From an uncultured Mediterraneibacter sp. (GTDB lineage: Bacteria; Bacillota; Clostridia; Lachnospirales; Lachnospiraceae), in contig CALWMN010000015.1 in assembly GCA_944381935.1 (NCBI GenBank), positions 1 through 64,000 of the forward strand: 64,000 bases of DNA, read 5' to 3'. Shown here in pieces: positions 6,219-21,890 of the stretch. Position 1 is the stretch's first letter. Each line of letters starts with the position of its first letter. Both the position numbers and the translations under genes were made by a program. The notes below the pieces were generated by a model that saw only the letters and a program-made list of their open reading frames with translations, was not told the origin of the DNA and did no database searches.

Positions 6219-6460
6219 GTGGCGGAGATGAGCTGAAGTCAGAATTTGTATATTTTCACTAAAATTTTGTCAGACAGTTAAAGGCGATAAATTGTGTAAA
6301 AAAACAATACTCCAGCTTTTACAGTTTTTCCATAGTCTGCAAAAATTGTGCAAAATATATAAAAAATATTTGAGTAATTGATAAATAATAGATAAGATGC
6401 TATAATAAGCTCAATTAATATAATTCAATTAAATTAAAATAAGAAAGGAGCAAAGAAAGA
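6219..6460 (+). promoter_or_regulatory. AT-rich promoter region of the sugar-catabolic island
   Basis: It contains a near-consensus sigma-A promoter, TTGATA (6378-6383), a 17-base spacer and TATAAT (6401-6406), giving a leader of about 50 bases before the aldolase ATG. Upstream of the -35 are two direct repeats TGCAAAA at 6338-6344 and 6349-6355, 11 bases apart (one helical turn), a possible regulator site. No clear catabolite-control (cre) match was seen. Confidence 0.7.
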
Positions 6461-7327
6461 ATGGCACTAGTGACAATGAAGGAGATATTGGATGACGCCA
6501 TGCGGAAGAATTACGCAGTCGGCGCATTCGATACGATGGACAGAATTACGACAGAGGCCATTATGACTGCATCTGAAAAGAAGGGCACCCCGGTTATTCT
6601 CATGGTCGTGCCGCCCTGCGTAGAGGGACCGGATGCAGATCTGTTCATGAGCTATCTGGTAGAACGCTGCAGAAGGAGTACCGTGCCGGTTGCACTTCAC
6701 ATGGATCATGCCCCCAGCTATGAGTACTGCGTGAAGGGAATCAAATACGGCTGTACATCGGTGATGTTTGACGGCTCATCCCTCCCCTATGAAGAGAACG
6801 TGGCGATTACCAGGAAGGTGATCGAAACCGCACATGCCTGCGGGGTGACAGTGGAGGCTGAGATCGGGCATGTGGCAGGACATGAAGGGAATATGCTGGA
6901 CGGAAATGTGGCTGACCCGAGCGCCTATACGACTGTGGAAGAGGCGCTGCAGTTCTATAAAGATACCGGCGTGGACTGCCTGGCAGTCGCGATCGGGACA
7001 GTGCATGGCGTATATAAAGGAACGCCCAATATTGATTATGACAGGCTGGACGCCATAAAGGAGGAGCTTCCGATCCCGATCGTGCTGCACGGAGGTTCCG
7101 GCCTGGTGGATGAGGATTACCGCAAGCTGGTCGCACACGGCATTAATAAGATCAATTTCTTCACGGCAATGACCCTGGCAGGAGCGGAAGCGGTCAGGAA
7201 GCTGGTCGAAGAGACTCCGAAATTCCAGATGACGGATGTGATTGCAGCCGGGCAGAAGGCGGAGGAAGAGATCGTAAGCCACCATATCAATGTATTCGGT
7301 ACTTTACCAGTTCATGCTGATTTATAA
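6461..7327 (+). CDS. Class II (zinc) ketose-bisphosphate aldolase
   Basis: A 288-residue enzyme of the FbaA/GatY/KbaY family, which cleaves a ketose bisphosphate (fructose-1,6- or tagatose-1,6-bisphosphate, or a related phosphate) to dihydroxyacetone phosphate and an aldehyde. Visible active-site parts: L-H-M-D-H-A with Asp82 and zinc His83, the glutamate in E-A-E-I-G-H, a zinc His in G-T-V-H-G-V-Y, and the phosphate-binding L-H-G-G-S-G-L motif followed by K-I-N-F. It is the first gene of the island, directly behind the promoter, and is followed 22 bases later by the sugar-binding protein. The location argues for a role in the island's pathway rather than as the housekeeping aldolase. The natural substrate is unknown. 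Confidence 0.85.
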   Translation: MALVTMKEILDDAMRKNYAVGAFDTMDRITTEAIMTASEKKGTPVILMVVPPCVEGPDADLFMSYLVERCRRSTVPVALHMDHAPSYEYCVKGIKYGCTSVMFDGSSLPYEENVAITRKVIETAHACGVTVEAEIGHVAGHEGNMLDGNVADPSAYTTVEEALQFYKDTGVDCLAVAIGTVHGVYKGTPNIDYDRLDAIKEELPIPIVLHGGSGLVDEDYRKLVAHGINKINFFTAMTLAGAEAVRKLVEETPKFQMTDVIAAGQKAEEEIVSHHINVFGTLPVHADL

Positions 7328-7349
7328 GAAAAAATAAGGAGGAACGTGT

Positions 7350-8543
7350 ATGAAGAAAAAGTTCGTAGGAATCTTACTGTGTGTAACAATGACAGTCGCG
7401 ATGATAGCCGGATGCAGCGGAAGCGGCGGAAGCTCATCCACAGGTTCTTCAGAGTCCGGTGATACTGCAGCAGAAGAAAGCAGTTCGGGAACAGAGGAAA
7501 CCTCAGCGGCAGCATCAGACGGAAGCTCATTTGACGAGTTTACAAGACCTGTAATCTCAGAGGATGGAACCCTGACAGTGGTAAACCTGCATACAAAGCC
7601 GGAGGTAGAATCCCAGAACAGAAGCATTATGCAATGTGAGCTGGAGTGCAAGATGCGCGGATGGGAATACAGAGATGTGGTATGGGAGAGCGATACAGAA
7701 TGGGCAGACCTGTTCCAGAATCTGATCAATCAGGGCGTGGATGCGATTATCTTAAGCTCCACAGAATCTATGGAGGCAAAAGTGGATCTGATCGCAGAAG
7801 CACGTAACGCGGGGATCGGGGTCTACTCGAATGACAACCAGGTGGTTCCGGGCGTGATCATGAACTCGACAATGCCAAACGGTACGGCGGCAATGGAGCT
7901 GATCTACCAGATCGGAAATGACGTCGGCTGGGAAGGCGCTTTCGGATTCTCCACGATGGCATCCATCCAGGTGCACAATGAAAGAATCCTTCCGATCCAG
8001 TCAATCTGTGAAATTTACACGAACCTGTCTGTCCTGGATACCGTGGACTCTCTTGCAGGCGGGACAGACCAGGCAACCTATGTCGGGGATTCGGCAAAAG
8101 CACTGATGCAGCAGTACGGTCAGGAGATGACCGGCTGGATCGGTTCCTGTGACTATATTGCAATGCCGGTGGCGGAGGCTGCATCTCAGAACCCGGATCT
8201 TGTACCGGAAGACTTCTTTGTGGCAGGGATTGACGGAGGCTCGGATGCATGGTCGTATATCAGGAGCGGCGGTTATTTCAAATACAGCTACGCGCAGCCC
8301 TTTGAAATGTTTGTACATAAGGTATTTGAATGTATCGAGGATATCCAGGTTGACGGACTTAACCCGGGAGACGAAGGCTGTATTATTTCCGCGCCGGGAG
8401 AAGTACTTTACTCAGAGGGCATGGTAGTTACGCAGGAGAATGTGCCGGATGTAGGGGCAAATATCAACAGTGTATTTGACTACTATGATGACGACCCGGA
8501 TGCATGGTACAACTGGGAAGGAACTTATGAAATTACAGAATAA
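7350..8543 (+). CDS. Sugar-binding lipoprotein of a ribose-type ABC importer
   Basis: A 397-residue extracytoplasmic receptor. Signal peptide with lipobox I-A-G-C (Cys22), then a long Gly/Ser/Glu linker to about residue 55. The body is a periplasmic-binding-protein type I (RbsB/YtfQ-like) fold: the region near residues 118-150 (L-I-N-Q-G-V-D-A-I-I-L-S-S) is the classical family motif, and V-A-G-I-D-G-G-S-D-A-W near 288-298 the second. The C-terminus is acidic and aromatic (Y-Y-D-D-D-P-D-A-W-Y-N-W), longer than usual. It delivers the unknown sugar to the ATPase and two permeases that follow. An intrinsic terminator after it should make it more abundant than the membrane subunits. Confidence 0.85.
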   Translation: MKKKFVGILLCVTMTVAMIAGCSGSGGSSSTGSSESGDTAAEESSSGTEETSAAASDGSSFDEFTRPVISEDGTLTVVNLHTKPEVESQNRSIMQCELECKMRGWEYRDVVWESDTEWADLFQNLINQGVDAIILSSTESMEAKVDLIAEARNAGIGVYSNDNQVVPGVIMNSTMPNGTAAMELIYQIGNDVGWEGAFGFSTMASIQVHNERILPIQSICEIYTNLSVLDTVDSLAGGTDQATYVGDSAKALMQQYGQEMTGWIGSCDYIAMPVAEAASQNPDLVPEDFFVAGIDGGSDAWSYIRSGGYFKYSYAQPFEMFVHKVFECIEDIQVDGLNPGDEGCIISAPGEVLYSEGMVVTQENVPDVGANINSVFDYYDDDPDAWYNWEGTYEITE

Positions 8544-8603
8544 TCTTTAGGGCAAAAGAAGATCAGATGGTTTATGAAGCAGCATGATTGATTGGTAGAG
8601 AGG

Positions 8604-8643
8604 AAAAGGGGATATCAGTGCCATACCCGGATATCCCCTTTTT
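8604..8643 (+). terminator. Intrinsic terminator between binding protein and ABC ATPase genes
   Basis: AAAAGGGGATATC (8604-8616) pairs with GATATCCCC (8630-8638) and is followed by five T (8639-8643). It lies inside the operon, so it probably acts as a partial terminator that lowers expression of downstream genes relative to the binding protein. Confidence 0.75.
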
Positions 8644-8664
8644 GATTAAAAAGAGGTGATAAAT

Positions 8665-10194
8665 GTGTCAAATACAGCACCATTACTGAGTATAAAGGAG
8701 CTCACAAAAAGATTTACAGGGGTTACGGCAGTGGATCATGTCAGTTTTGATATCGGACAGAATGAGATCCATGCGCTGATCGGCGAGAACGGAGCCGGGA
8801 AGAGCACGCTTTGTAAGATGCTCACGGGTGCATACAGCATTGATGAGGGCCATATTGAAATTAACGGAGAGAAGATGGACTTCAAAGGGCCCGCGGATTC
8901 TATGAAGGCGGGAATCAACATGGTATACCAGGAGCGCAATCTGATCGGCTACCTCAATGCCGCCCAGAACATCTGCCTGGGAACGGAAAATATGAAAGCG
9001 GGAGTCGTGGTAGACCAGAAAGCGATGAGGAAGAGGGCGGAGGCGGTCAGAGAGCGCCTGGGGGTGGACACGCCCCTCGATGTCCCGATCGAAAAGATGG
9101 GCGCCGGGGCGCAGCAGTTGGTTGAGATTATGCGTGCTACGTCCACGGAACCGAAAATCCTGATCCTGGATGAGCCTACAGCATCACTGGGAGAAGGCGA
9201 GATTGAACCGTTTCTGAAATTCGTGAAAAAGCTTACCACCGACATTAATATCTCCGTCATCTATATTACCCATAAGTTGGAAGAAATTTTTACAATTGCG
9301 GATAAAGTGACGGTCATGGCGGACGGAAAGAAGACGATGACCGCCAATATCCCGGACATCACACAGGATGAATGCGTCAGGGCGATGATCCGCAGCGATA
9401 AGATTAAAAGCGTTGTAGTACCGCCTATGAACTATGAAGAGGCGGAAAAGCACCGGGTTCTGGATGTGAAGGAGCTTACCTACGATGGAAAAACGCATCA
9501 TGTGGAGTTCCATGTCAACAAAGGCGAGGTAGTAGGGTTCTACGGGCTTGTCGGAGCGGGACGTACTGAGACGATGGAAGTCATATCGGGGATACGCCTG
9601 TGTGACAAGAAAGAGTTTACATTTGACGGGGAGACTATCACAAGCGGTGACAGCTTTAAAATGATCCAGAAAGGGATGATTCTGACCCCAGAACTTCGCA
9701 ATAACGGTATTTTCCCCTCCCTGAACCTGGTGGAAAATGTCTGTACGCTGTTCGTCCAGAAGCTTGCGACAAAGTTTGGAATGATTAAAAACAAAGAGAG
9801 CAGAGCTTTCACAGAAGAGGTGCTCAAGAAAAACGGGACAAAGTACAGAAGCAAAAACCAGCTCATTTCCGACCTGTCGGGAGGTAATATCCAGAAGATT
9901 ATCATCGGACGGTCAGTAGAAGTGGAAAACCTGAAGCTTCTTACAGTCGACGAGCCGACGGCAGGCCTTGACCTGGGAGCAAAAAGTGAAATCTACCTGA
10001 AGATCCGCCATCTCGCAGATGATCTTGGGAAAAGCGTCGTATTTATTTCTTCCGAGCTGGAAGAGCTGATGAAAGTGTGTAACAGGATATATATTTTCTA
10101 TGAAGGGGACGTCGTGAAAGAAGTGAAGAGAGAAGAGTTCGACAATCATATGATTTTGGGGTATGCATTAGGAGGTGCAGGTGATGGCAGGTAA
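8665..10194 (+). CDS. Sugar ABC importer ATP-binding protein with two ATPase domains (RbsA/MglA/YtfR-like)
   Basis: A 509-residue protein with two fused ATPase domains that energise a ribose-type sugar importer. Domain 1 has Walker A G-E-N-G-A-G-K-S-T and Walker B I-L-I-L-D-E-P-T-A-S-L with a shortened signature (G-A-G-A-Q-Q-L). Domain 2 has the degenerate Walker A G-L-V-G-A-G-R-T-E usual in this family, the signature L-S-G-G-N-I-Q-K, and Walker B L-T-V-D-E-P-T-A-G-L-D. I chose GTG 8665 as start because GAGGTGAT lies 5-6 bases upstream; an earlier in-frame GTG (8656) is part of that ribosome site. The gene overlaps the next permease by 11 bases. Confidence 0.88.
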   Translation: MSNTAPLLSIKELTKRFTGVTAVDHVSFDIGQNEIHALIGENGAGKSTLCKMLTGAYSIDEGHIEINGEKMDFKGPADSMKAGINMVYQERNLIGYLNAAQNICLGTENMKAGVVVDQKAMRKRAEAVRERLGVDTPLDVPIEKMGAGAQQLVEIMRATSTEPKILILDEPTASLGEGEIEPFLKFVKKLTTDINISVIYITHKLEEIFTIADKVTVMADGKKTMTANIPDITQDECVRAMIRSDKIKSVVVPPMNYEEAEKHRVLDVKELTYDGKTHHVEFHVNKGEVVGFYGLVGAGRTETMEVISGIRLCDKKEFTFDGETITSGDSFKMIQKGMILTPELRNNGIFPSLNLVENVCTLFVQKLATKFGMIKNKESRAFTEEVLKKNGTKYRSKNQLISDLSGGNIQKIIIGRSVEVENLKLLTVDEPTAGLDLGAKSEIYLKIRHLADDLGKSVVFISSELEELMKVCNRIYIFYEGDVVKEVKREEFDNHMILGYALGGAGDGR

Positions 10195-11197
10195 AGAAGG
10201 AAAGAGAGTGAAACTTGCAGTAAAAAGAAAAAGTACAGTGGGAGAAAATATCACGAAATATTTCCTGTTGATTGCGGATGTGATTCTCATTGTTTTCTTT
10301 GGAATCATGCGTTCGGGATTCTTGCAGCCAAGCAATCTGCTGAATATCTTATCTACCGCGGCCCTGGTCGGTGTGATGGGCATGGGAGCCAGCATTGTCA
10401 TGATGGTTGGGGAGATGAACTTCGGCGTCGGGGCGGAGGCGACGCTGACGGCTGCTTTGCTGGGATTCATACTGGGAAAGGGTTATGTCAATGTTTATCT
10501 TGTGGCAGTACTTATTGCCCTGCTGGTAATAGGGCTTATGGGAGTCCTTGACTCTGTATTCGGCGTCATTATCGGAGTCCCGGCGTTTATCGCCACACTT
10601 GCGATCTCCAAGATCAATGACGGTATTGTCAACTGGCTGACAGAAGGAAAGACGATGTTTTACAATAACTGGCCGGATGCTTTTAAGTTCTTAGGGCAGG
10701 GCAGGATCGGACCGGTTCCGGTTATGGCGATTGCTTTCCTTATTATCGCGCTTCTTCTCTGGTTCATCATGGACAAGACAAAGCTGGGCACCTATATTCA
10801 GGCAATCGGGAATAATACAAACTGCTGTAAACAGGTCGGAATTAATGTCCGGAGAATTAAAATCATTGCATTTATCATTTGTTCCCTTGTATGCGGATTT
10901 TCCGGGATCCTTGCCTGCTCAAGGACAAGCAATGTCCAGGGGACGCTTGGAAGTGGGATCATGATGGACGCTATGGCGTCGGCAATGCTCGGGGCGACAT
11001 TCTTAAGACCGGGGCGGTATAACATCCAGGGAACCGTAGTGGCAGCGATTTTAACGGCAATTATTTCAAATGGGATTACGTTCTGTGCTTATCCGGATTA
11101 CATTCAGGATATTGTAAACGGAATCATTTTGATCATCGCTGTCGGCTATATCGCAATGAAGAGAAAAGAAGGTCTTCCTTCTGTAAAGATGGGATAG
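10184..11197 (+). CDS. Sugar ABC importer permease 1 (RbsC/YtfT-like)
   Basis: A 337-residue permease of the branched RbsC/AraH/YtfT family with a basic N-terminus and about nine to ten hydrophobic segments. The G-E-M-N-F-G-V-G-A-E-A motif near 80-90 corresponds to the family signature G-x-I-D-L-S-V-G. The A-I-G-N-N-T-N-C-C-K-Q-V-G-I motif near 205-218 is the conserved cytoplasmic loop contacting the ATPase. The start ATG at 10184 has AGGAGG 8 bases upstream; an earlier GTG (10175) overlaps that ribosome site. It pairs with a second, different permease downstream, so the channel is probably a heterodimer, as in YtfT/YjfF of the E. coli galactofuranose importer. Confidence 0.85.
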   Translation: MAGKEGKRVKLAVKRKSTVGENITKYFLLIADVILIVFFGIMRSGFLQPSNLLNILSTAALVGVMGMGASIVMMVGEMNFGVGAEATLTAALLGFILGKGYVNVYLVAVLIALLVIGLMGVLDSVFGVIIGVPAFIATLAISKINDGIVNWLTEGKTMFYNNWPDAFKFLGQGRIGPVPVMAIAFLIIALLLWFIMDKTKLGTYIQAIGNNTNCCKQVGINVRRIKIIAFIICSLVCGFSGILACSRTSNVQGTLGSGIMMDAMASAMLGATFLRPGRYNIQGTVVAAILTAIISNGITFCAYPDYIQDIVNGIILIIAVGYIAMKRKEGLPSVKMG

Positions 11198-11209: not shown

Positions 11210-12193
11210 ATGACAGAGGCCAAAGGAAAAACAAAGTCAAAAAATGGCACAGGAATTTTACAAAAATACGGACTGCTGATTATCACAATTTTAGTTTGCA
11301 TTATATTTTCTGCACTGCGTCCAACCTTCCACGGAATGGGGAACATCATAAACATTGTCAGTTCCACGGTCGTGCTGTGTATTGCGGGGCTGGGGCTGTC
11401 ACTGGTCATGATCACAGGCGAGATCGACTTTGCCTGCGGGGCAGAGCTTGCGGCAGGCGGATGCATTGTGGCAGTTCTGGCAAAGAACGGCGTGAATTAT
11501 TTTGCGGCGGTTCTGGTTGCCCTGGCAGTCTGCGCTGTGATTGGGACAATCAACGGAATCCTTCATACAAGAGTGGGGATCCCGGGATTTATTGCCACAA
11601 TGGGTGTCTCCTTCGTGGTAGACGGCATCAATAAGATGATTACCGGAAGCACCCGGGTGTTCTCTTCTACCTGGGGAGATATTTTTGTCGCGATAGGGCA
11701 GAAGCGGATCGGCGGGGTGATACCGATCTCCGTTATCATTTTGATCGTTGTCGCAATTCTGATACTGGTTTATACGGAAGGCATGACGAACGGGCGTAAA
11801 CTGTATGCCGTGGGCGCGAACAGCGATGCATGCAAATATGTAGGAATAGATGCGCGGAAGGAAAAGATGAAGGCGTTTATCATCAGCGCAATCCTGTGCG
11901 GATTAGGCGGAATCATCAATTCATCCCAGTTAAACGCCGCAACGCCGTACATGGGAGATACAACGCTGGTGAGCCTTCTGACGATGCTGATGTTGGGAGC
12001 GACATTTTACAGGTCAGGTGTATTTAATGTGCCGGGAACAATCGTGGGAGCGCTTCTGGTCAACATTATCAATAACGGGATGGTGCTCATGGGAGCGAAG
12101 ACATGGCAGCAGTATGTGGTGCAGGGCGCGATCATGCTGTTTGCGGTGACGGTGATCACGATCATGAATATCAGGGCAAAACGAGGAAACTGA
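11210..12193 (+). CDS. Sugar ABC importer permease 2 (RbsC/YjfF-like)
   Basis: A 327-residue second permease of the RbsC family. Family marks: G-E-I-D-F-A-C-G-A-E-L near residues 70-80 and A-V-G-A-N-S-D-A-C-K-Y-V-G-I near 200-213. About nine to ten hydrophobic helices, basic ends (K-G-K-T-K-S-K at the start, R-A-K-R-G-N at the end). It lies 12 bases after permease 1 with its own AGGAGG. Both permeases carry the cytoplasmic coupling motif, so neither is a degenerate copy. The pair argues for an asymmetric transporter. Confidence 0.85.
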   Translation: MTEAKGKTKSKNGTGILQKYGLLIITILVCIIFSALRPTFHGMGNIINIVSSTVVLCIAGLGLSLVMITGEIDFACGAELAAGGCIVAVLAKNGVNYFAAVLVALAVCAVIGTINGILHTRVGIPGFIATMGVSFVVDGINKMITGSTRVFSSTWGDIFVAIGQKRIGGVIPISVIILIVVAILILVYTEGMTNGRKLYAVGANSDACKYVGIDARKEKMKAFIISAILCGLGGIINSSQLNAATPYMGDTTLVSLLTMLMLGATFYRSGVFNVPGTIVGALLVNIINNGMVLMGAKTWQQYVVQGAIMLFAVTVITIMNIRAKRGN

Positions 12194-12220: not shown

Positions 12221-13399
12221 ATGTCAGAAACAATGGGAAAAGTTGCAGTCAATACCGGGTATTATTCGATGGAGATCCAGGAATATCCGGTGCCGGAAGC
12301 CAGGGACGACGCGGCAGTGATCAAGATTGAAACATTCTGTATCTGCGGAAGTGACCAGCACTTTGTAAAGCTTCCGGGAACGCATAAGGGCGGGACGGAA
12401 GGACATGAATTTATGGGGCGCATCATCTCCCTGGGCAAAGACGCGAATAAGACGCTGAAGGTGTACGGCGGCGAGCTCAAAGTGGGCGACAGGATTGTCG
12501 TGTATCCGCATATTACATGCGGGAAATGTGACACATGCTTAAGATTCGGCGACGGAGTGTGCGGAGTCTGCGACGATGATTACATTTACGGGGGCGTCTT
12601 TGACATGGATACCGGCAAGGAGATGAACCATGTGCCGGAGCAGTGGCCGCATTTCAAAGGCGGGTTTGCGCAGTACTGCTATCTGTTCCCGGGAACTTAT
12701 GTGTGGAAGGTGCCGGACGACATGCCGGGTGAGATCGCAGCGCTTCTCGACCCGTGCGCAGTGGCAATGCGGGCGGTGGAACAGGTCATGACTCCGATTG
12801 GAGGAACGGGAGAAGGCTTCAGCACAACGTCAAGATGTCTCGTGATCGGGGCAGGCGCAATCAGTATCATGACGGCAATGATTCTCCGCGAGATGGGGGC
12901 GAAACAGGTCATCATCACGGATTTCTTTGATGAAAAGCTGGCAAAAGCGAAGGAAATCGCGAAAGTGGACGAGGCGGTCAACGTTGCGGACATGACCTCC
13001 GATGAGCGTGTGGAGAAGATACTGGAGCTGACAGAAGGCGGAGCCCATGTCGTCATTAACGCTGCAAACCATCCGTCCACGTGTATCGAGGGCCTCCGCA
13101 TGGTGAGGAAGTGCGGATATTATGTGGAAATCGGAAATGCGATGGATTTCGGGGCACATTACATGTCAGAGATCAATATTCCGGCGGTTGTCTTTGAGAA
13201 GAATGCACATATCACTTCGGTCGTGGCGAACACGCCCCAGTGCTTTGACCGCTCCTTTGAATTTCTGAAAAGATGGAAGGAGCTTCCGTTTGATAAGCTG
13301 ATCACGCACCGGTTCACAACCCTGGAAGAGATCATCCCTGTCATGAAGAAGATGGGCGACCGCGATTTCATCAAGGCGGCATGCACATTTGAGGACTGA
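12221..13399 (+). CDS. Zinc-dependent medium-chain polyol/sugar dehydrogenase
   Basis: A 392-residue enzyme of the MDR (alcohol/sorbitol/threonine dehydrogenase) superfamily that oxidises a secondary alcohol with NAD(P). Catalytic zinc ligands are expected at Cys42 (C-G-S-D), His62 and Glu63 (G-T-E-G-H-E). A structural-zinc cluster is present: Cys100, Cys103, Cys106 and Cys114 in C-G-K-C-D-T-C followed by V-C-G-V-C. The Rossmann motif is G-A-G-A-I-S near residues 209-214 with an acidic residue (I-I-T-D-F) after the second strand, favouring NAD. It is longer than many family members owing to an insertion around residues 76-88 and 120-150. It follows the importer by 27 bases and is probably an early step of the pathway; similarity to tetritol or polyol dehydrogenases is only general. 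Confidence 0.8.
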   Translation: MSETMGKVAVNTGYYSMEIQEYPVPEARDDAAVIKIETFCICGSDQHFVKLPGTHKGGTEGHEFMGRIISLGKDANKTLKVYGGELKVGDRIVVYPHITCGKCDTCLRFGDGVCGVCDDDYIYGGVFDMDTGKEMNHVPEQWPHFKGGFAQYCYLFPGTYVWKVPDDMPGEIAALLDPCAVAMRAVEQVMTPIGGTGEGFSTTSRCLVIGAGAISIMTAMILREMGAKQVIITDFFDEKLAKAKEIAKVDEAVNVADMTSDERVEKILELTEGGAHVVINAANHPSTCIEGLRMVRKCGYYVEIGNAMDFGAHYMSEINIPAVVFEKNAHITSVVANTPQCFDRSFEFLKRWKELPFDKLITHRFTTLEEIIPVMKKMGDRDFIKAACTFED

Positions 13400-13430
13400 A
13401 GAACGCGAAAAGAAGAAAGGATGAGTGTCA

Positions 13431-14477
13431 ATGAGTAAAAAGGTAGTAGTAATGGAAGACTTCACAACGCCGGATGGAAGGATGCATGTATATGATACTC
13501 TGGCGGAGAAATACGGCGCCGAGGTGAAATATGTCAAGGTGCAGAAGTATATCAGGGATCATGACGATTTCTCGAAGATGTTCTTAAACATGGAAAAAAA
13601 CGGACCGGATGTGATCGAGGAGGAAGAGGAGCTGCTCGCAGAAATCAAGGACGCTGATATTGTGATCTCCCACATCAGCGCGGTCAGCACGAAGGCGGTC
13701 AACAGCGCAGAGCATCTCGAGGCAGTGTGCATCATGAGGAGCGGCGTTGAGAATGTGAATGTTGAAAATGCCACGGCGCGGGGCATAAAAGTGGTCAATG
13801 CCCCGGGACGTCTTGCGGTCCCGGTCTCAGAATTTACGGTCGGCCTGATGATTGCAGAGATGAAAAATATTGCGCGCTCCCACCAGAGGATGCAGGCAGG
13901 GAACTTTGAAGACGGATTTTCCAATTCCGAGTATTCCGTCAACCTGAAAGGGAAAAATGTCGGACTGGTCGGATGCGGCATGGTAGGCTCAAGGGTGGCG
14001 AATATCATGAAGGCGTTCGAGGCAAATGTCCTGATTTATGACCCGTATATGCCGGAGGAGAAGATAAAAGAGATGGGTTACACTCCGATGGGACTTAACG
14101 ATCTGTGCAGAGAGTCTGACGTCATCTCCATACATTTCCGCCTGACGCCTGAGACGAGGGGGCTGATAGGAGCAGAACAGTTTGCTCTGATGAAGCCGGG
14201 ATGCTTCCTGATCAACACGGCGCGGGCCGGCCTTGTGGACGAGGACGCCATGATGGATGCCCTGACAAACAAGAAGATTGCCGGAGCAGGGCTTGATGTA
14301 TTTCATCAGGAACCGCTGGAGGCGGACAATCCGCTTCTTACGATGGACAATGTGACGATCACCGGGCATCTGGCAGGACACTGTGCAGATATTTTCCAGA
14401 TGACAGTAGATATTATGATGCGCGCGCTGGATCATTATTTCCAGACAGGCGAGTGGATCAATGTGGTAAACAAATAG
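13431..14477 (+). CDS. D-isomer-specific 2-hydroxyacid dehydrogenase
   Basis: A 348-residue NAD(P)-dependent enzyme of the SerA/hydroxypyruvate-reductase family, interconverting a 2-hydroxyacid and 2-ketoacid. NAD-binding G-L-V-G-C-G-M-V-G near 178-186, the catalytic Arg in N-T-A-R-A-G near 262-267, the Glu near the D-V-F-H-Q-E-P-L segment, and the final His in T-G-H-L-A-G-H near 310-316. The short C-terminus lacks the ACT domain of full-length SerA, so it is not the serine-biosynthesis enzyme by architecture. The start is ATG 13431, AAAGGA about 9 bases upstream. Its presence in a sugar operon suggests that a 2-hydroxy- or 2-keto-acid (aldonate-like) intermediate is formed, or that it reduces a 2-keto group on a sugar phosphate. 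Confidence 0.82.
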   Translation: MSKKVVVMEDFTTPDGRMHVYDTLAEKYGAEVKYVKVQKYIRDHDDFSKMFLNMEKNGPDVIEEEEELLAEIKDADIVISHISAVSTKAVNSAEHLEAVCIMRSGVENVNVENATARGIKVVNAPGRLAVPVSEFTVGLMIAEMKNIARSHQRMQAGNFEDGFSNSEYSVNLKGKNVGLVGCGMVGSRVANIMKAFEANVLIYDPYMPEEKIKEMGYTPMGLNDLCRESDVISIHFRLTPETRGLIGAEQFALMKPGCFLINTARAGLVDEDAMMDALTNKKIAGAGLDVFHQEPLEADNPLLTMDNVTITGHLAGHCADIFQMTVDIMMRALDHYFQTGEWINVVNK

Positions 14478-14487: not shown

Positions 14488-15951
14488 ATGAAAAGACAGT
14501 TGATTTTAGTGGTGGATTATGGGACTTCCAATACCCGTGTGAATGCAATTGACACGGCAAACGGCGAAATTGCATATTCTGCGTCAAGAAAATACCGGAT
14601 CCGCTCAAAGGGAAAAGGATATGCGGAAATCTCTGCAGATGAGCTGTGGTCATTTTCAGCGAGCTGCATGAAAGAGGTTGTGGACCAGATGGGTGAAGAT
14701 GATGAGCCACGGGCAATTTCCTATTCGTTTTTCGGAGATAACCTGATCCCCACAGACAAAGAAGGAAATGCGTTAAATGACTGTATTTTATGTACGGATC
14801 CCAGAGGGGAAGATGAGGCGGAATTTGTCAACAGCAGGATCCCCCGAAAAGAGCAGGTCCACATTATCGGCGATTCCTATATGCTGTATAAATTCGGGGC
14901 AAAGGTACTCTGGGTAAAACAGAATATGCCTGAGATCGCGGATAAGATTGCATATTATGATACACAGCAGCAGTATATTTTCCGCAAATTGGGAGTGGCA
15001 CCGGCATGTGATTATACGATGGCGGCAAGAAAACAGCTTCTCGATCTCAGGACGATGAAATGGTCCCCGCGCTTTCTGGAAGTGCTCGGTATCACGGCAG
15101 AATCCCTCGGGACGGATATTGTGGCATCGGGCGATATTGTCGGATATGTCCGGTCCTATGGCGAGGCAGAATTTCAGCAGCCCCTCCCTGTCATTGCGGG
15201 AGGGCATGACTGCGATGTAGCCATGATCGGCATGGGGCTGATCAATGAAGGGCAGGATATGATAGGAGATATTACGGGGACCTATGACCACGTGGGTTAT
15301 CTGGCAGACAGGATTGTCAACCTTCAGGAAGAAAATCCCGAATATCCGTTGTGCTCATACAGCGGTCCGTTTAAGAATACTTCCGTGTGCCTTGGAGCAT
15401 TTCCCACTGCAGGGGCGACTCTGGAATGGTTTATGCGGGAGATAAATGAGGGGACAGGGCAGGAAGATTATATGAAATACTGGAACCATGTCCCCTTTGA
15501 CGGACCGGGAAATGTGCTGGTACACCCGACGCTGGACAGCGAACGGGGAGTGATCGAAGGGATCGGGGTAAATACAGCGAAAACAGACATTTTTAAGGCG
15601 GTGATCGAGGCGATCACCTATGAGAACAGGAGACTGGTCGACAACTGCAGGAGCGTCAAGAAAAGCGGCGCCGACAGGATACGGATCGGAGGCGGGGCGG
15701 CAAATTCTGATGAGTGGATGCAGCTTCGGGCGGATATCTCCGGCATGACGATCGAGCGTATGAGAAATATCCAGATATCATCCGTGGGAAGCGCAATCCT
15801 GGGCGCGGTTGCCGTGGGCATTTACCCGGACGTCGAGAGCGCTGTGGGGAAGATGGTACATATAAGAGATGTGTTCAGACCCAATCCCGATATGAATAAG
15901 AGATATGAAGAGAAGTACCGGATGTATCTGAAAAAGATGCATTACGTTTAA
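14488..15951 (+). CDS. FGGY-family carbohydrate kinase
   Basis: A 487-residue kinase of the FGGY (xylulokinase/glycerol kinase/LsrK) family, ATP-dependent, phosphorylating a sugar or polyol. The N-terminal V-V-D-Y-G-T-S-N-T-R is the phosphate-1 motif, A-G-G-H-D-C-D-V-A-M near 240-249 carries the catalytic Asp, and I-G-G-G-A-A-N-S near 394-401 is the adenosine motif followed by V-G-S-A-I-L-G-A. Length is normal. It lies 10 bases after the hydroxyacid dehydrogenase. The substrate cannot be read from sequence; resemblance to kinases annotated as autoinducer-2 kinase is a family-level impression only. Confidence 0.83.
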   Translation: MKRQLILVVDYGTSNTRVNAIDTANGEIAYSASRKYRIRSKGKGYAEISADELWSFSASCMKEVVDQMGEDDEPRAISYSFFGDNLIPTDKEGNALNDCILCTDPRGEDEAEFVNSRIPRKEQVHIIGDSYMLYKFGAKVLWVKQNMPEIADKIAYYDTQQQYIFRKLGVAPACDYTMAARKQLLDLRTMKWSPRFLEVLGITAESLGTDIVASGDIVGYVRSYGEAEFQQPLPVIAGGHDCDVAMIGMGLINEGQDMIGDITGTYDHVGYLADRIVNLQEENPEYPLCSYSGPFKNTSVCLGAFPTAGATLEWFMREINEGTGQEDYMKYWNHVPFDGPGNVLVHPTLDSERGVIEGIGVNTAKTDIFKAVIEAITYENRRLVDNCRSVKKSGADRIRIGGGAANSDEWMQLRADISGMTIERMRNIQISSVGSAILGAVAVGIYPDVESAVGKMVHIRDVFRPNPDMNKRYEEKYRMYLKKMHYV

Positions 15952-15981: not shown

Positions 15982-16929
15982 ATGAGATATAAAGAATTTG
16001 GGAAAACAGGAGAAAAGGTATCCGCGCTCTCCGTGGGGACCTGGGCGATCGGCGGCGCAAACTGGGGAGAGGTGAACAAGACGGACTGCATCAGGGCAAT
16101 CCACGCAATGCTTGACAATGGAGTAAACAGTATAGATACTGCCCCTGTCTATAACTGCGGGGAGTCAGAGCGGATCGTCGGGGAAGCCATAAAAGGGAGA
16201 AGAGATAAGATATTCCTGACGACGAAGACCGCTCTGTACCAGAACTCCCCGGATGAGCCGAGCGTAAAGGACGGCAGAAGGGAGACCATCCTCAGGCTCT
16301 GTGACGAGTCCTTAAAGAATCTCCAGACAGACTATATTGACCTGATGCTGATCCACTGGCCGGACATTGAGCACAATGCGCCGATCGAGGAGACAATGGG
16401 CGCATTGGGCGAGCTTGTCCAGGCGGGAAAGATCCGGTATATCGGCGTGTCAAACTTCAGTGCCGGGCAGATCCGCAAGGCACAGAGATATGGAACCGTA
16501 TCCGCTTCGGAGCCGCCCTATTCTATGGTGAACCGCTCGGAAGAAGACCTGATGAAATGGTGCTGTGAAAACGGCATTGCAAATATGACATACGGATCCC
16601 TGGGGGCAGGGATTCTGACAGGGACAATAAGGGAATTGCCGAAATTTGATAAAAACGACTGGAGAGTAACCTTTTATGATTTCTTCCAGGAACCAAAGTT
16701 TTCCAAAGTCATGAAGCTTTTGAAGGTTCTAGATGAGATTGCCGCCGGGCATAACGCCCCGGTGGCGCAGGTGGCGATAAACTGGAATACGCAGAAGGAC
16801 TTTGTACAAACTGCATTGTGCGGGGTACGCAATGAACACGAGGCAATTGAGAACTGCAGCGGTTTTGAGTGGAGCCTGTCCCAGGAAGAAATGAACGCGA
16901 TTGATAAGGCGATTGATGAATACCTGTAA
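15982..16929 (+). CDS. Aldo/keto reductase, first of a tandem pair
   Basis: A 315-residue NAD(P)H-dependent aldo-keto reductase of the (beta/alpha)8 family. The catalytic tetrad is visible: Asp in S-I-D-T-A-P, Tyr in V-Y-N-C-G-E-S-E, Lys in L-T-T-K-T-A, His in L-I-H-W-P-D. The C-terminal cofactor motif is the P-V-A-Q-V-A-I-N-W and G-V-R-N-E-H-E region. It is a close paralogue of the next gene: the first 16 residues are identical and long blocks match throughout. It probably reduces or oxidises a carbonyl in the island's pathway. Confidence 0.85.
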   Translation: MRYKEFGKTGEKVSALSVGTWAIGGANWGEVNKTDCIRAIHAMLDNGVNSIDTAPVYNCGESERIVGEAIKGRRDKIFLTTKTALYQNSPDEPSVKDGRRETILRLCDESLKNLQTDYIDLMLIHWPDIEHNAPIEETMGALGELVQAGKIRYIGVSNFSAGQIRKAQRYGTVSASEPPYSMVNRSEEDLMKWCCENGIANMTYGSLGAGILTGTIRELPKFDKNDWRVTFYDFFQEPKFSKVMKLLKVLDEIAAGHNAPVAQVAINWNTQKDFVQTALCGVRNEHEAIENCSGFEWSLSQEEMNAIDKAIDEYL

Positions 16930-16954
16930 AGAGAAACGTATGAGGTGAGGCAAA

Positions 16955-17899
16955 ATGAGATATAAAGAATTTGGAAAAACAGGAGAAAAAGTGTCGGCGC
17001 TTACAGTGGGAACCTGGGCGATCGGCGGCGCAAACTGGGGTGAGGTCAACAAGGCGGACAGCATCAGGGCGATCCATGCAATGCTGGACTGCGGGGTAAA
17101 CAGTGTCGACACCGCGCCGGCATATAATTTCGGAGAGTCTGAGAGGGTAGTGGGCGAGGCTTTGAAGGGAAGAAGGGACAAGGTCTTTCTCACGACAAAG
17201 ACAGGGGTATACAATTCAAAAGAGCAGCCGTTTGTGAAAGATGCGAGAAAGGAAACGGTGATCCGGCTCTGTGAGGAATCCCTGAAAAATCTCCAGACAG
17301 ATTACATTGACCTGATGCTGATCCACTGGCCCGATATTGAGCATAATGCGCCCTTCGAGGAGACGATGGGGGCATTGGAGGAACTGAAAAAGTCCGGCAA
17401 GATCCGTTTTGCAGGGCTCTCCAATTTTGATCAGAAGCAGATCGAGGAGATCAGCAGATTTGGGGAGATATCGGCGTTCCAGCCGCCCTATTCTATGGTG
17501 GACCGTTCGCAGGAAGAACTTATGAAATGGACGGCTTCCCGGGGGATTGCCAACATGACGTACGGCTCTCTCGGCGCAGGGATCCTGACCGGGACAATCC
17601 GGGAGCTTCCCCATTTTGAACCTGATGATATGAGGCTGACCTTTTATGATTTCTTCCAGGAGCCTAAATTCTCCAAGGTGATGCAGCTTTTGTCCGTGCT
17701 GGATGAAATCGCCGGGGCGCACAATGCGCCTGTCGCACAGGTCGCAGTCAACTGGAATGCCCAGAAAGACTTCGTCGCGACTTCGCTTTGCGGCGTCCGA
17801 AATGCAGAGGAAGCGATTGAGAACTGTAAGGGATTTGAGTGGAGCCTTTCAGAGGAAGAGATGGCATCGATCGACAAAGCAATTGAAGAGTATTTATAG
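16955..17899 (+). CDS. Aldo/keto reductase, second of a tandem pair
   Basis: A 314-residue paralogue of the preceding gene, 25 bases downstream. The same tetrad is intact: S-V-D-T-A-P, A-Y-N-F-G-E-S-E, T-T-K-T-G, L-I-H-W-P-D. Differences cluster where substrate loops lie: A-L-Y-Q-N-S-P-D against G-V-Y-N-S-K-E, and the V-N-R-S-E-E-D / C-C-E-N-G region against V-D-R-S-Q-E-E / T-A-S-R-G. Both copies keep all key residues, so both should be active, perhaps on different substrates or with opposite direction. The duplication looks fairly recent. Confidence 0.85.
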   Translation: MRYKEFGKTGEKVSALTVGTWAIGGANWGEVNKADSIRAIHAMLDCGVNSVDTAPAYNFGESERVVGEALKGRRDKVFLTTKTGVYNSKEQPFVKDARKETVIRLCEESLKNLQTDYIDLMLIHWPDIEHNAPFEETMGALEELKKSGKIRFAGLSNFDQKQIEEISRFGEISAFQPPYSMVDRSQEELMKWTASRGIANMTYGSLGAGILTGTIRELPHFEPDDMRLTFYDFFQEPKFSKVMQLLSVLDEIAGAHNAPVAQVAVNWNAQKDFVATSLCGVRNAEEAIENCKGFEWSLSEEEMASIDKAIEEYL

Positions 17900-17909
17900 G
17901 AAGAAAGAG

Positions 17910-18671
17910 ATGGATTTAAAATTAGCAGGTAAAACTGTTATCGTAACAGGCGGCTCCAAGGGAATTGGAGCCGGTATCTGTACGGTATTCGCACGTGAGG
18001 GCGCGGACATTGCAATGAATTACCGCTCGGATACAGAAGGGTCAGAGCGGTTCGCGGAAAAGCTGCGCCGGCAGTACAAAGTGAAGGTGGCTGCGATAAA
18101 AGCGGATGTCACCAGGGAAAAGGAAATAGAGAAACTGTATGAAAAGGTATTCGACGAGTTTGGGACAGCAGATATCCTGGTAAATAATGCAGCCGGGGGC
18201 ATGGCATTTAAACCGTTTCAGGAATACACGGCAGAGGAGTGGAAACGGGGGGAGGAAGGTGTTTTAGACCCGGTATTTTATATGAGCAGAATCTTTCTGA
18301 GGCATTGTATCGATGGTGGACGGGGCGGACATATCATTAACCTTCTCTCGAAATCCGCGATTCTGTCCAGCAGTGTGAATAATTTAAGCTACGTTGCCAC
18401 AAAAGGGGCGCTGGTGTCCCTTACACGCGGAATGGCAAAGGAGTTTATCCCGTACGGCGTCTATGTAAACGGGATTGTGCCGGGATATGTAAAAACAGAA
18501 TACAGACATGCAGACGGGGAGGAACGCACGGAACGGGTAAGAAAGCTGCTCCCCACCGGGGAATTTGCAATGCCGGAAGAGATCGGAAATGTCGCGGCAA
18601 TTCTGGCGTCTCCCCTGTTCGGGCAGATGATAGGCGCGATTGTGGACTGCACCGGAGGGACGCTGATTTAA
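17910..18671 (+). CDS. Short-chain dehydrogenase/reductase
   Basis: A 253-residue classical SDR. Cofactor motif T-G-G-S-K-G-I-G at 13-20, N-N-A-A-G-G near residues 91-96, the active-site Tyr and Lys in S-Y-V-A-T-K near 160-165, with a serine-rich S-A-I-L-S-S-S before it. Acts on a hydroxyl or ketone of a sugar or polyol. Start at ATG 17910, 10 bases after the preceding stop with AAGAAAGAG upstream; an open frame extends upstream into the reductase gene, but out of frame with that gene's coding and without support. The lack of an Asp after the second strand (M-N-Y-R-S) suggests NADP rather than NAD, inference only. Confidence 0.85.
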   Translation: MDLKLAGKTVIVTGGSKGIGAGICTVFAREGADIAMNYRSDTEGSERFAEKLRRQYKVKVAAIKADVTREKEIEKLYEKVFDEFGTADILVNNAAGGMAFKPFQEYTAEEWKRGEEGVLDPVFYMSRIFLRHCIDGGRGGHIINLLSKSAILSSSVNNLSYVATKGALVSLTRGMAKEFIPYGVYVNGIVPGYVKTEYRHADGEERTERVRKLLPTGEFAMPEEIGNVAAILASPLFGQMIGAIVDCTGGTLI

Positions 18672-18701
18672 ACGACATGAGGAATCGAAAAGGAGGATCG
18701 T

Positions 18702-19142
18702 ATGAAGAAAGCAGGGATCTTAAATGCAGAGCTGTTGTGTGAGTTAACGAAACTGAGGCATCAGGATAAGTTTGTTATCTGTGATGCAGGATTCCCGATA
18801 CCGGAGGGGCGAAAGACCGTCGATGTATCACTGGTTGCCGGGATCCCTACATTTATGCAGGTGCTGAAAGCTGTTTTAAATGAGATGATTGTGGAAGAAT
18901 ATATGGTCTTCGATTTTATGAAGCAGTACAATGAAGAGTATTATAATGAACTGCAGCAAATGTTCTGCAATCAGGAGCATGCAGAAGTATCAATGCCGGA
19001 GTTTGTGGAAGCATCCAGGGAAGCAAAGCTTTTTATCAGGACAGGTGAACTAAAGCCTGCGTCTAATATTATGCTGACGTCGGCAACAGGGGTAAGGGAG
19101 ATGAATCAGTCTCTGGATGTGAGTTTTGAGTCGGTTTTATAA
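18702..19142 (+). CDS. RbsD/FucU-family sugar mutarotase (D-ribose pyranase-like)
   Basis: A 146-residue enzyme of the RbsD/FucU family, which interconverts pyranose and furanose or alpha and beta forms of a free sugar entering through an ABC importer. M-K-K-A-G-I-L-N at the start, His20 in L-R-H-Q-D (the catalytic His of RbsD), and C-D-A-G-F-P-I-P-E-G near 27-36 are family signatures; V-D-V-S-L-V-A-G-I-P-T-F follows. Its presence says that the imported substrate is a reducing sugar or is turned into one. Strong AGGAGG upstream. Confidence 0.87.
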   Translation: MKKAGILNAELLCELTKLRHQDKFVICDAGFPIPEGRKTVDVSLVAGIPTFMQVLKAVLNEMIVEEYMVFDFMKQYNEEYYNELQQMFCNQEHAEVSMPEFVEASREAKLFIRTGELKPASNIMLTSATGVREMNQSLDVSFESVL

Positions 19143-19173
19143 CTTGATAAGGCAAACAGAAGGGAGCTGATGT

Positions 19174-20379
19174 ATGGACAAAAGCAGCGGCAAACCAAAA
19201 AAAGATGATTCGGCCGTCCTTTTGCTGGCGAATACACTTATGTGGTCTGCTATGGGGGTGCATACGCCCTTTATCAATTCTTTTTATGCCGTAAAGGGAC
19301 TCGCAAGCTTTGAGATTGGGATATTGAGTGCGATCACACCGATCCTTGCAATATTGGTCCAGCCTTTCTGGGCGTATCTCAGTGACCGGACAGGGAGGAG
19401 GAAGGCCGTCCTTATCCTGATCACTGTGGCAAGCGCGCTTGCAATACAGGGATACGGGATGGGGAATACCTTCCTGTTTTTTGCAGCAGAAACCTTGCTT
19501 TTCGGCGCATTCAACACATCTGTCTTACCGCTTAGTGATGCGCTGGTATCAAATTACGGCAGGAGGAGCAGGATTGGGTTTGCCAGGATCAGAATGGGAG
19601 GCACGATAGGGTTTGCGGCCGTGACTTTAATATTTGGAAATGTGATCAGCGGCAATACAGACCTCATCTTTCCGGTTGCGGGAGCCGCGTATCTGATCCT
19701 GGCATTGTGTTACTCCCGGCTGCCCGATGACAGGGCGCACGGGGAATCCAGGAAGCCGTCAAAAGGCAGGATCTTTAAAGACAACAGAGTGGTCTTTCTC
19801 TTTTTCCTGGCGTTTCTTGTGCAGTTCGGCATGAGCATCAGCGGGTTTTACAGCGTCTATGTCATTGGCCTTGGGTACAGACAGTCAGTGGTGGGGTTGT
19901 CAAGCTGCGTCTCCGCGCTGAGTGAACTGCCGGTGCTTTTCTTCGCAGAAAGGATGCTGAGGCGTTTCAGGATCGACCATCTGATGGTATTCTCTGTTTT
20001 CATGAACGCACTGAGGCTGCTGCTGGGAGGAAGTGGGGCGCTGCCCCTGATGATAGGAGGTCAGATGCTGCAGAGCGCGACCTACATGATCCCGTATTAC
20101 TGCTGCATCACGTTTATCAATGAGAATGTCATGGAAGGGAAAATCTCCCAGGGGCAGACCTGTCTGACAATGGTCCAGCAGGGGCTTGCCATGGTGACGG
20201 GAAGTCTGGCAGGAGGCGCGATTTCAGGAGCTGTCGGGCTGAAGTACACATTTATGTCGGTGGCAGCAGGACTGACGCTTATGGGGGGGCTTTCGATATT
20301 AATAGGAAAGAGAATATTTTCCGCAGAACCTGGTCCGGGTCATGAAAAAGAAGGGCGCGCAGGGCGCAAAAGGAATTGA
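19174..20379 (+). CDS. Major facilitator superfamily transporter
   Basis: A 401-residue membrane protein with about 12 hydrophobic helices. The family A loop is in Y-L-S-D-R-T-G-R-R-K near residues 68-77. It resembles the LacY/nucleoside-proton-symporter-like MFS branch with short loops. The C-terminus is basic and hydrophilic (H-E-K-E-G-R-A-G-R-K-R-N). It is the last enzyme-or-transport gene of the island and adds a second uptake or export route next to the ABC importer: it might bring in a different form of the substrate or release an end-product. Substrate unknown. Confidence 0.75.
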   Translation: MDKSSGKPKKDDSAVLLLANTLMWSAMGVHTPFINSFYAVKGLASFEIGILSAITPILAILVQPFWAYLSDRTGRRKAVLILITVASALAIQGYGMGNTFLFFAAETLLFGAFNTSVLPLSDALVSNYGRRSRIGFARIRMGGTIGFAAVTLIFGNVISGNTDLIFPVAGAAYLILALCYSRLPDDRAHGESRKPSKGRIFKDNRVVFLFFLAFLVQFGMSISGFYSVYVIGLGYRQSVVGLSSCVSALSELPVLFFAERMLRRFRIDHLMVFSVFMNALRLLLGGSGALPLMIGGQMLQSATYMIPYYCCITFINENVMEGKISQGQTCLTMVQQGLAMVTGSLAGGAISGAVGLKYTFMSVAAGLTLMGGLSILIGKRIFSAEPGPGHEKEGRAGRKRN

Positions 20380-20550
20380 AAGCGGACGCAGACATGGACA
20401 TGTGATGGAAAAATCTTGCATTTTAAGCGGAACAAACGTAATATATAGGTATACCTATTCGGGCACATTTTATCATATACTTCTGGGCGGGGGGCAGCGT
20501 TTGGCTGTGAATTAAGGTATAGATTGAACAAATGAAAAGGAATAAATTTC

Positions 20551-21792
20551 ATGTCCAAAATACATACTTATGATCCACGTTTTACCAGTCTGAAGAAGCA
20601 GCAGAGAAACGGTAGAAATGCAGCATCTATGCAGAGAGACAACTGGAAACTGATTTTACAGTTGATCTATGAAAACGGTTCGATATCACGGAAGGCGCTG
20701 GCAGAAAAGACAGGATTACAGCAGGCGACCGTCACTATCATTATGAATGAACTTCTCAATCAGGGATTGATTAAAAAAAACGGGATGGTCGACGGGGGGA
20801 ACGGGCGAAAGGTACAGTCCTTTTCTATGGCGGAAAACTTTTACATAATTTCCATCCGTCTTACGGCAGTGTATATCAAGGTTGCACTGTTTGATATACA
20901 TGTGAGTGTACAATATGTCGAAAAAATTTTTTTCAAAACAGAAGACGGTGTCACAGAAGCAAAAGAAATTGCGCTGGAACATATCCGAAGGATAGAATCC
21001 CTTGTAGAAAAAAAGAAAATTCTTTGTATTATTATGGGAGTCGAACATAAATATCGTTTGATTGACGACGACTATGCAATCTGGGACGACGTCAGGGAGA
21101 GGTACTGCCACATAGGAAGAGATCTCCATGATATTACGCAATACCGGGTTTTTGTGAATCGCGCGATTAACTATGCCGCCTATGATTTCTGGGACAGGTA
21201 TAAAAAAGAGGCGAGGCTGGAAGACGATTATTTTATGATGGTGTATATCCAGTTGGGATATGATCTGGAAAGTGTTATCATTGTAAATCACGAAATTATA
21301 TATGGAAAGAACGGAAGATGCGGGCAGCTTCATGACCTGCCGGTGGACCGGGAAAGCGGATTGACGTGCAAAGAGACCATGACGGTTCCGGCTATTTTGG
21401 AACGCGTGCAGACACTTTTGGAACAATACCCGGATTCCTTTATTTCGGATATTGTGGATTTGAATATCCGTGATATCATCGTCGGTTATGAAAAGCAGGA
21501 CGCCCTGTGCAGACAGATATATCAAGAAGTGATTGAGAACATGGGATATCTGATCAGTTTTATCTTAAACTGGATGGATCCTGATGTGGTGTTTCTGGGA
21601 GATGAAATCCCGTCCAACGAAGAATTCTTTGAGTCGCTGAGGGCAGAAGTGGCAAGGTACGCCGGGGAGCAAAAGGCAAAACGTGTCGGAGGGTTTATTC
21701 TGGAACGAAAGACACGCAATGACCCGAACCTGATCGGAGCTGCAAAATATGGGTTTGATTTGATGATAGGAGAGATCGGAATATTTTCATAA
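20551..21792 (+). CDS. ROK-family transcriptional regulator (NagC/XylR-like) with degenerate sugar domain
   Basis: A 413-residue regulator: N-terminal winged helix-turn-helix (I-S-R-K-A-L-A-E-K-T-G-L-Q-Q-A-T-V near residues 48-64, wing V-D-G-G-N-G-R-K), then a ROK domain. The ROK zinc motif C-x-C-G-x-x-G-C is not present; only C-G-Q-L-H-D remains at that place, and the glycine-rich phosphate motifs of ROK kinases are also poor. It should bind DNA but not phosphorylate sugar. It sits 170 bases after the MFS gene with its own leader and is the only regulator in the island, so it is the likely controller of the promoter at 6378-6406, probably as a repressor relieved by an intermediate. Confidence 0.8.
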   Translation: MSKIHTYDPRFTSLKKQQRNGRNAASMQRDNWKLILQLIYENGSISRKALAEKTGLQQATVTIIMNELLNQGLIKKNGMVDGGNGRKVQSFSMAENFYIISIRLTAVYIKVALFDIHVSVQYVEKIFFKTEDGVTEAKEIALEHIRRIESLVEKKKILCIIMGVEHKYRLIDDDYAIWDDVRERYCHIGRDLHDITQYRVFVNRAINYAAYDFWDRYKKEARLEDDYFMMVYIQLGYDLESVIIVNHEIIYGKNGRCGQLHDLPVDRESGLTCKETMTVPAILERVQTLLEQYPDSFISDIVDLNIRDIIVGYEKQDALCRQIYQEVIENMGYLISFILNWMDPDVVFLGDEIPSNEEFFESLRAEVARYAGEQKAKRVGGFILERKTRNDPNLIGAAKYGFDLMIGEIGIFS

Positions 21793-21848
21793 GGAGTAAA
21801 CGGTAAACAGGAGCAAAAATTACAAGTCTGGCCAGAGTATTTCAGAAG

Positions 21849-21890
21849 CGCCGGGACAATGCTGTATCCGCATTGTCCCGGCGTTTCTTT
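21849..21890 (+). terminator. Strong intrinsic terminator after the ROK regulator gene
   Basis: A perfect 14-bp stem, CGCCGGGACAATGC (21849-21862) with GCATTGTCCCGGCG (21870-21883), followed by TTTCTTTT. It ends the sugar island. Confidence 0.85.

Follow-up and report, generated by a model that had tools for sequence, protein, structure and literature searches.

A sugar-catabolic operon of an uncultured Mediterraneibacter sp. and a candidate redox, kinase and aldolase route to dihydroxyacetone phosphate

Which compound is degraded by the products of a long one-strand gene cluster in the genome of an uncultured Mediterraneibacter sp.? We addressed this question for a stretch of 64,000 nucleotides (contig CALWMN010000015.1, hereafter the window), in which 14 genes of the + strand (positions 6461-21792; Table 1) encode a class II aldolase, a ribose-type ATP-binding cassette (ABC) importer with a sugar-binding protein (SBP), a zinc-dependent dehydrogenase (ZnDH), a D-2-hydroxyacid dehydrogenase (HADH), an FGGY kinase, two aldo-keto reductases (AKR1 and AKR2), a short-chain dehydrogenase (SDR), an RbsD-type pyranase, a major facilitator superfamily (MFS) transporter and a ROK regulator. 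The reading that we prefer, with a probability of roughly 0.45, is an inducible operon that serves the breakdown of a monosaccharide or a sugar acid. The compound would be imported, remodelled by redox steps, phosphorylated and cleaved to dihydroxyacetone phosphate (DHAP), with an acid fragment left for the HADH.

Gene content, the aldolase and known systems

All 14 frames are open, and they follow one another at distances of -20 to 31 bp, with two exceptions, i.e. gaps of 112 bp (SBP-ABC) and 171 bp (MFS-ROK). The start of the SDR gene is our choice: the frame was listed from 17703, inside the AKR2 gene, and the ATG at 17913 was taken instead. Pfam families agree with the assignments for 14/14 proteins, which confirms the one-strand gene set, ROK regulator included, described in an earlier note on this DNA; the genes span approximately 15.3 kb, and not the 14 kb given there. 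Judged from gene spacing and from the gene order conserved in the relatives described below, this is a genuine bacterial operon, with putative co-transcription of its genes.

The term class II aldolase, used in the earlier note, is correct for the class II fructose-bisphosphate (FBP) aldolase fold (PF01116), but not if read as the fuculose-phosphate family (PF00596). The protein was aligned with FbaA, GatY, KbaY, YdjI, four paralogues from the same genome and eleven aldolases from other clusters (20 rows). The three zinc-binding histidines are kept in every row (H83, H182 and H210 of the window protein; H111, H227 and H265 of FbaA). Position 332 of FbaA (counting Met) is occupied by Arg, which we take to be the residue that binds the C6 phosphate, in FbaA, GatY, KbaY and one FBA-like paralogue (L035); the remaining 16 rows, YdjI among them, lack it, with Thr in the window protein and Met in its counterpart from locus L006. 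Because the Arg of FbaA, GatY, KbaY and the FBA-like paralogue is missing, the substrate is probably a monophosphate that carries its phosphate beside the ketone and yields DHAP, as for E. coli YdjI. The aldolases of the window and of loci L006, L021B, L024 and L025 group together (95/92), and a DPR motif is kept in four of five PDB relatives among the matches listed. The window aldolase passes only the broad subfamily model TIGR00167, and its scores with TIGR01859 (267, cut-off 343) and TIGR01858 (213, cut-off 444) are too low; with the Arg absent as well, identification as an FBP or tagatose-bisphosphate aldolase was rejected.

Ten operon proteins were compared with NCBIfam (all except the ABC ATPase, both permeases and AKR2), and only RbsD reached an equivalog cut-off (NF008761, 112.4 bits, cut-off 93). 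The kinase missed those for xylulokinase (166.9 versus 380), fuculokinase (135.6 versus 471) and gluconokinase (114.3 versus 649), so that the standard ketose-kinase assignments were rejected. Single components resemble members of the ribose, tagatose/galactitol, autoinducer-2, inositol or sulfoquinovose pathways, from one of which the operon could have diverged; this idea is made very improbable by the missed equivalog cut-offs, by the loss of the aldolase Arg and by hallmark genes that are not among the Pfam families of the operon. The earlier view that no standard sugar pathway fits is thus upheld.

Four systems were compared individually. Ribose catabolism (rbs) shares the RbsD pyranase, but Pfam finds no PfkB family (ribokinase) in any of the 14 proteins; the sugar kinase here is of the FGGY type, and membership was rejected. 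The E. coli lsr system (autoinducer-2) resembles the operon in its ABC importer with two membrane subunits and its FGGY-type kinase; however, the window kinase scores 118.3 bits with the LsrK model NF008187 (cut-off 528) and no LsrF/LsrG-type family occurs among the Pfam matches of the operon. Given the missed LsrK equivalog, membership of autoinducer-2 processing was rejected. The E. coli ydjEFGHIJKL cluster (octuluronate 1-phosphate aldolase) has in common with the operon an AKR, zinc dehydrogenases, a sugar kinase, transporters and a PF01116 aldolase that likewise lacks the Arg. It differs in that no HADH, RbsD or ABC importer is annotated there, and its kinase YdjH is presumably of the PfkB rather than the FGGY type. 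Since the window aldolase is only 30% identical to YdjI and AKR1 misses the cut-off of the YdjG methylglyoxal reductase model (NF049922, 188 versus 550 bits), membership of ydj was also rejected. In the sulfo-EMP2 pathway, the PF01116 aldolase SqiA likewise acts on a ketose 1-phosphate, according to the passages of PMC9594981 that concern it. The kinase of that pathway belongs to PF00365, and neither this family nor the SqvD isomerase or a sulfoquinovosidase is among the Pfam families of the operon; sulfoquinovose membership was rejected on these grounds. By analogy, the operon is predicted to work most like ydj and sulfo-EMP2, while being a member of neither. No description of the gene combination was found among the papers listed from open-licence PubMed Central, and it may be described elsewhere.

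Relatives and recurrence of the enzyme set

One counterpart, L006, comes from an uncultured Oscillospiraceae metagenome-assembled genome (MAG) and has the order aldolase-SBP-ABC-permease-permease-ZnDH-HADH-FGGY-AKR-SDR-RbsD-ROK, as in the window. The ROK proteins are 50% identical and the others 60-83% (ZnDH 83%). L005 (uncultured Clostridia MAG, contig cut at both ends) keeps the window order from ABC to ROK, except that a different MFS_1_like gene stands between SDR and RbsD, whereas the MFS gene of the window follows RbsD. The tandem AKR pair (15982-17899, 78% identity) is found in the window, a single AKR in L005 and L006. The window shares the operon type of L006 in genes, order and an operator-like element, apart from the MFS gene and second AKR that L006 lacks. 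No characterised homologue was found; the earlier note would have been contradicted by close homologues of the same gene order with an established sugar, and the same-order homologues that do exist (50-83%) are in unannotated MAGs.

The operator-like element is an AT-rich stretch of 23 bases (6421-6443), 22 of which are identical in L006, where a perfect 20-bp palindrome overlaps it; the surroundings diverge more. Bases 6422-6443 have a single match in the window (none in 100 shuffles) and one in the whole genome at up to two mismatches (reversed control, 0). From the two sequences we propose this element as a candidate ROK operator. It lies just downstream of the one strong sigma-70 promoter-like site, in agreement with the single promoter proposed previously; at the corresponding position of the alignment, L006 has the related hexamers TTGACA and TATGAT.

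The operon type seems rare and scattered, because few genomes hold close relatives of its kinase and SBP. With own genome included in each count, the kinase was detected at E<=1e-60 in 6/299 genomes of the family (in seven other places, with 32-40% identity) and at 1e-90 in 1/391 genomes of the class, i.e. its own; the SBP was detected in 3/58 genomes of the genus, in 1/398 of the phylum at 1e-60 and in 5/397 of the family at 1e-30. Taken together, the genome searches covered 1607 genomes, repeats included. Plasmid sequences searched with tblastn gave at best 27.5% identity for the kinase (among the 20 matches listed of 677 records) and 32.6-42.3% for the HADH (among the 15 listed of 2944), in uninformative contexts.

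Two selections of relatives were used, by the SBP alone (6 relatives) and by the kinase alone (7 other loci, L020-L026). Among the former, four carry an AKR, HADH, FGGY kinase, PF01116 aldolase and ZnDH beside ABC importer genes, and five have HADH and FGGY, the sixth (G693) ending at the SBP with its contig. In the latter, HADH was present in 7/7 loci, PF01116 in 5/7 (L021-L025), ZnDH in 5/7, AKR in 4/7 and RbsD in 2/7; L026 has a PF00596 aldolase in place of PF01116. Two of these loci, L024 and L025, are near-copies of a single cluster type and not independent. The importers vary (ribose-type ABC, other ABC types, an MFS_2 symporter). The genome of the window itself holds a second operon (G000:C2, ~96-105 kb; L060 10047-19205) of the order HADH (~42%)-SDR-PF01116 aldolase-SBP (probable)-ABC-permease-FGGY. 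By these comparisons the window operon is no one-off: its set of enzymes is found again beside other importers and regulators. In L042 (8873-13037) and L024 (11897-18526), a PTE-family protein (by Pfam in L024), a Zn-dehydrogenase and ribose-type ABC genes lie near the HADH-FGGY-aldolase set, and a xylose-isomerase-like TIM barrel was confirmed in L042.

All five enzymes are present in the window, in L006 and in what we call type-B operons (G727: L018, L040; G085: L051, L055; G148: L052, L056; G1126: L053, L094). The latter resemble the window operon in SBP (41-43% identity), ABC (51-55%), AKR (51-55%), HADH (36-42%) and aldolase (41-46%). They differ in FGGY (20-23%) and ZnDH (26-27%; that of G727 has no BLAST match to the window protein and is a Zn-dehydrogenase by model), in a SorC-like regulator instead of ROK (by inspection, in the three whose region was read) and in the lack of an RbsD or SDR match. 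This variation bears on the idea of two functions in one operon, namely a sugar importer-kinase-aldolase route and, independent of it, a set for detoxification formed by the AKRs, the SDR and the MFS protein as exporter. Such an assembly would predict that L006 and L005 lack the MFS gene and second AKR or have different ones, and that the SDR is without a match in the four type-B operons, as is observed; an AKR nevertheless accompanies the importer in 4/6 SBP-selected relatives (absent from G013, with G693 cut by the contig end), and we regard a double function as improbable. Near the type-B genes of G727, a xylose-isomerase-like TIM barrel (PF01261) adjoins the importer (L018 15804-16763), and L040 14202-19654 encodes a rhamnosidase, an HADH, a PGDH_C protein and a transketolase piece, a group that we assume to be reminiscent of apiose catabolism.

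No other enzyme accompanies the FGGY kinase as constantly as the HADH. In an alignment of 11 rows, an E-x-x-G-P insertion is present in nine (not in L024 and L025) and the Arg of an xRxG stretch in all. So constant a partnership points to an acid on the pathway, and the acid intermediate suggested earlier from the HADH now appears likely from the gene neighbourhoods. A neutral redox isomerisation can also be envisaged, in which the AKR would turn an unusual aldose into an alditol, ZnDH/SDR would oxidise this to a ketose and the FGGY kinase would add a phosphate at C1. Cleavage would give DHAP together with glycolaldehyde, lactaldehyde or glyceraldehyde, and the second AKR would reduce this second product; the HADH would then have a side activity on 2-oxo acids. 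The RbsD score implies a reducing sugar, the top NCBIfam model of AKR1 is that of YdjG and the aldolase has no second anion site, all of which would suit this route. A side activity should, however, be lost more often than the HADH is, which accompanies the kinase in 7/7 loci (above AKR and ZnDH) and is missing among the SBP-selected relatives only from the truncated sixth; we consider the neutral route doubtful.

The proposed route

The redox-kinase-aldolase route of the earlier note stands as regards gene set and conserved order; we infer from these the order of steps, the site of phosphorylation, the roles of single enzymes and the substrate class. The ROK protein may repress at the AT-rich element. 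The ribose-type importer would bring the sugar in and the RbsD protein would speed ring opening, which points to a reducing sugar. With the SDR as an epimerising partner, an AKR and the ZnDH might take the place of an isomerase, reducing the aldehyde sugar and re-oxidising it to a ketose or keto-aldonate. All four aligned AKRs keep the residues D52, Y57, K82 and H125, which we take to be the catalytic tetrad. The FGGY kinase would place the phosphate on the CH2OH that adjoins the newly formed ketone, and the aldolase would split the monophosphate into DHAP and a short fragment. For this fragment, or its precursor, we propose a carboxylic acid that the HADH reduces, such as glyoxylate or tartronate semialdehyde/hydroxypyruvate. 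With either of these the role of the HADH would be obvious; a neutral fragment is possible and would leave it unexplained. The genome has, at another place, a glycerate kinase gene, whose product could take D-glycerate. The SBP gave no readable ligand, because its AlphaFold model has a mean pLDDT of 59 and the sugar-binding proteins found by Foldseek share 12-19% identity among the matches listed (50 of 1629).

A more specific form of this preferred reading starts from an uncommon uronic or aldonic acid: a uronate would be reduced to an aldonate (AKR), oxidised to a 5-keto-aldonate (ZnDH), phosphorylated and cleaved to DHAP and tartronate semialdehyde, and the latter reduced to glycerate by the HADH. 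Matches of the ZnDH include RspB (4ilk) and NF007489 (96.8 bits, cut-off 376), which we assume to be aldonate 5-dehydrogenase relatives; they are not its best matches and lie far below cut-off. The absence of the Arg from YdjI, annotated as an octuluronate-1-phosphate aldolase, would also suit this form, as would the glycerate kinase gene. The genome also encodes UxaC, by which ordinary hexuronates already have a route, and we judge this form distinctly unlikely.

Several observations weigh against the preferred reading. (i) The function of the FBA-like paralogue L035 is assumed, YdjI alone serves as a known non-bisphosphate control, and 8q58, which was deposited under the name ketose-bisphosphate aldolase, lacks the DPR motif; moreover, without the Arg a charged aldehyde also loses an obvious anchor, and the second product may be neutral. 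(ii) G013 (SBP 32% identical) has HADH and FGGY, with no AKR, ZnDH or PF01116 match within 20 kb, L020 has no aldolase of any kind within 20 kb, and the HADHs of the close copies L024 and L025 are only ~30% identical and lack the insertion. (iii) At 20-27% identity of FGGY and ZnDH, type-B and window operons may use different sugars. (iv) With UxaC present, common hexuronates are not the best guess. (v) The operator-like element rests on two sequences and touches the ribosome-binding site, and nothing resembling it was found upstream of the ROK genes.

As a wider proposal, tentative and on the whole rather unlikely, the HADH-FGGY-DHAP-aldolase set might form a catabolic core, so far undescribed and highly variable, that this bacterial family has in common with related Clostridia. 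Keto-aldonates derived from sugars would be phosphorylated and cleaved, by a PF01116 aldolase without a second phosphate site, to DHAP and a 2- or 3-carbon oxo-acid; a distinct HADH subfamily would reduce the acid, and upstream redox enzymes would be swapped for each sugar. For many sugar operons of bacteria no substrate is known, and here the enzyme set, the sequence marks of aldolase and HADH and the candidate regulator site provide a testable pathway prediction, which would help to annotate ~16 loci, the second operon of this genome included.

Features of the operon and its surroundings

Table 1. Operon genes and associated elements, with positions in the window
Feature	Position	Strand	Evidence
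Sigma-70 promoter-like site TTGATA-N17-TATAAT	6378..6406	+	11/12 score, top-scoring site in region
AT-rich operator-like element, proposed ROK site	6421..6443	+	L006 conservation
PF01116 class II DHAP-type aldolase without bisphosphate Arg	6461..7327	+	Pfam, alignment
SBP, Peripla_BP_4, probable lipoprotein (by inspection)	7350..8543	+	Pfam
mRNA hairpin between SBP and ABC genes	8603..8643	+	L006 has a hairpin of partly different sequence at the same place
Double ATPase (double ABC_tran), ribose-type ABC importer	8656..10194	+	Pfam
Permease 1, BPD_transp_2	10175..11197	+	Pfam
Permease 2, BPD_transp_2	11210..12193	+	Pfam
ZnDH (MDR family), ADH_N/ADH_zinc_N	12221..13399	+	Pfam, NCBIfam
HADH, 2-Hacid_dh, subfamily with E-x-x-G-P insertion	13425..14477	+	Pfam, alignment
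FGGY carbohydrate kinase	14488..15951	+	Pfam, NCBIfam
AKR1, Aldo_ket_red; top NCBIfam model YdjG, below cut-off	15982..16929	+	
AKR2, tandem copy, 78% identical to AKR1	16955..17899	+	Pfam, alignment
SDR	17913..18671	+	Pfam, NCBIfam
RbsD-type sugar pyranase, RbsD_FucU	18702..19142	+	NF008761 112.4 vs cut-off 93; Pfam
MFS_1_like transporter, accessory; absent in L006, different and elsewhere in the order in L005	19174..20379	+	
ROK-family regulator with winged helix	20551..21792	+	Pfam
Intrinsic terminator-like hairpin, 19 pairs	21844..21888	+	

Promoter-like sites on both strands of the region number 32, versus a mean of 20.1 (sd 4.3) in shuffles, and terminator-like stems 14, versus 12.8 (sd 3.7). 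The SBP-ABC hairpin is weak in the window alone (folding z -1.66, 12/200 shuffles as good), versus z -3.16 (1/200) in L006.

The operon has a GC content of 0.493, versus 0.509 for the window, and its base composition is not distinctive. On inspection of the reading frames, the genes upstream (3339-6140) resemble those for ABC import of an iron siderophore; a terminator-like hairpin (6191-6207) separates them from the operon. Downstream, a decayed and internally shortened gene remnant (21997-22139), presumably alkyltransferase-like by its motif, stands between the operon and yaaA. A yaaA match was present in 52/58 genomes of the genus, own included; 29 congener loci were available with 1.5 kb on either side, and 22 matched congeners had none. 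DNA of the remnant matches upstream of yaaA in 15/29 of these loci; a ROK gene or the flanking siderophore gene was beside yaaA in 0/29 within 1.5 kb, and no clean empty site was found among the 29. The remnant and the yaaA context fit an acquisition of the operon in this lineage.

Elsewhere in the genome, a further cluster (G000:C11, ~18.8-28.7 kb; L062 8813-18700) contains, mostly by inspection, a PF01116 aldolase, a probable ABC importer, AKR-like genes and a probable sugar kinase, together with a probable glycyl-radical enzyme and its activase.

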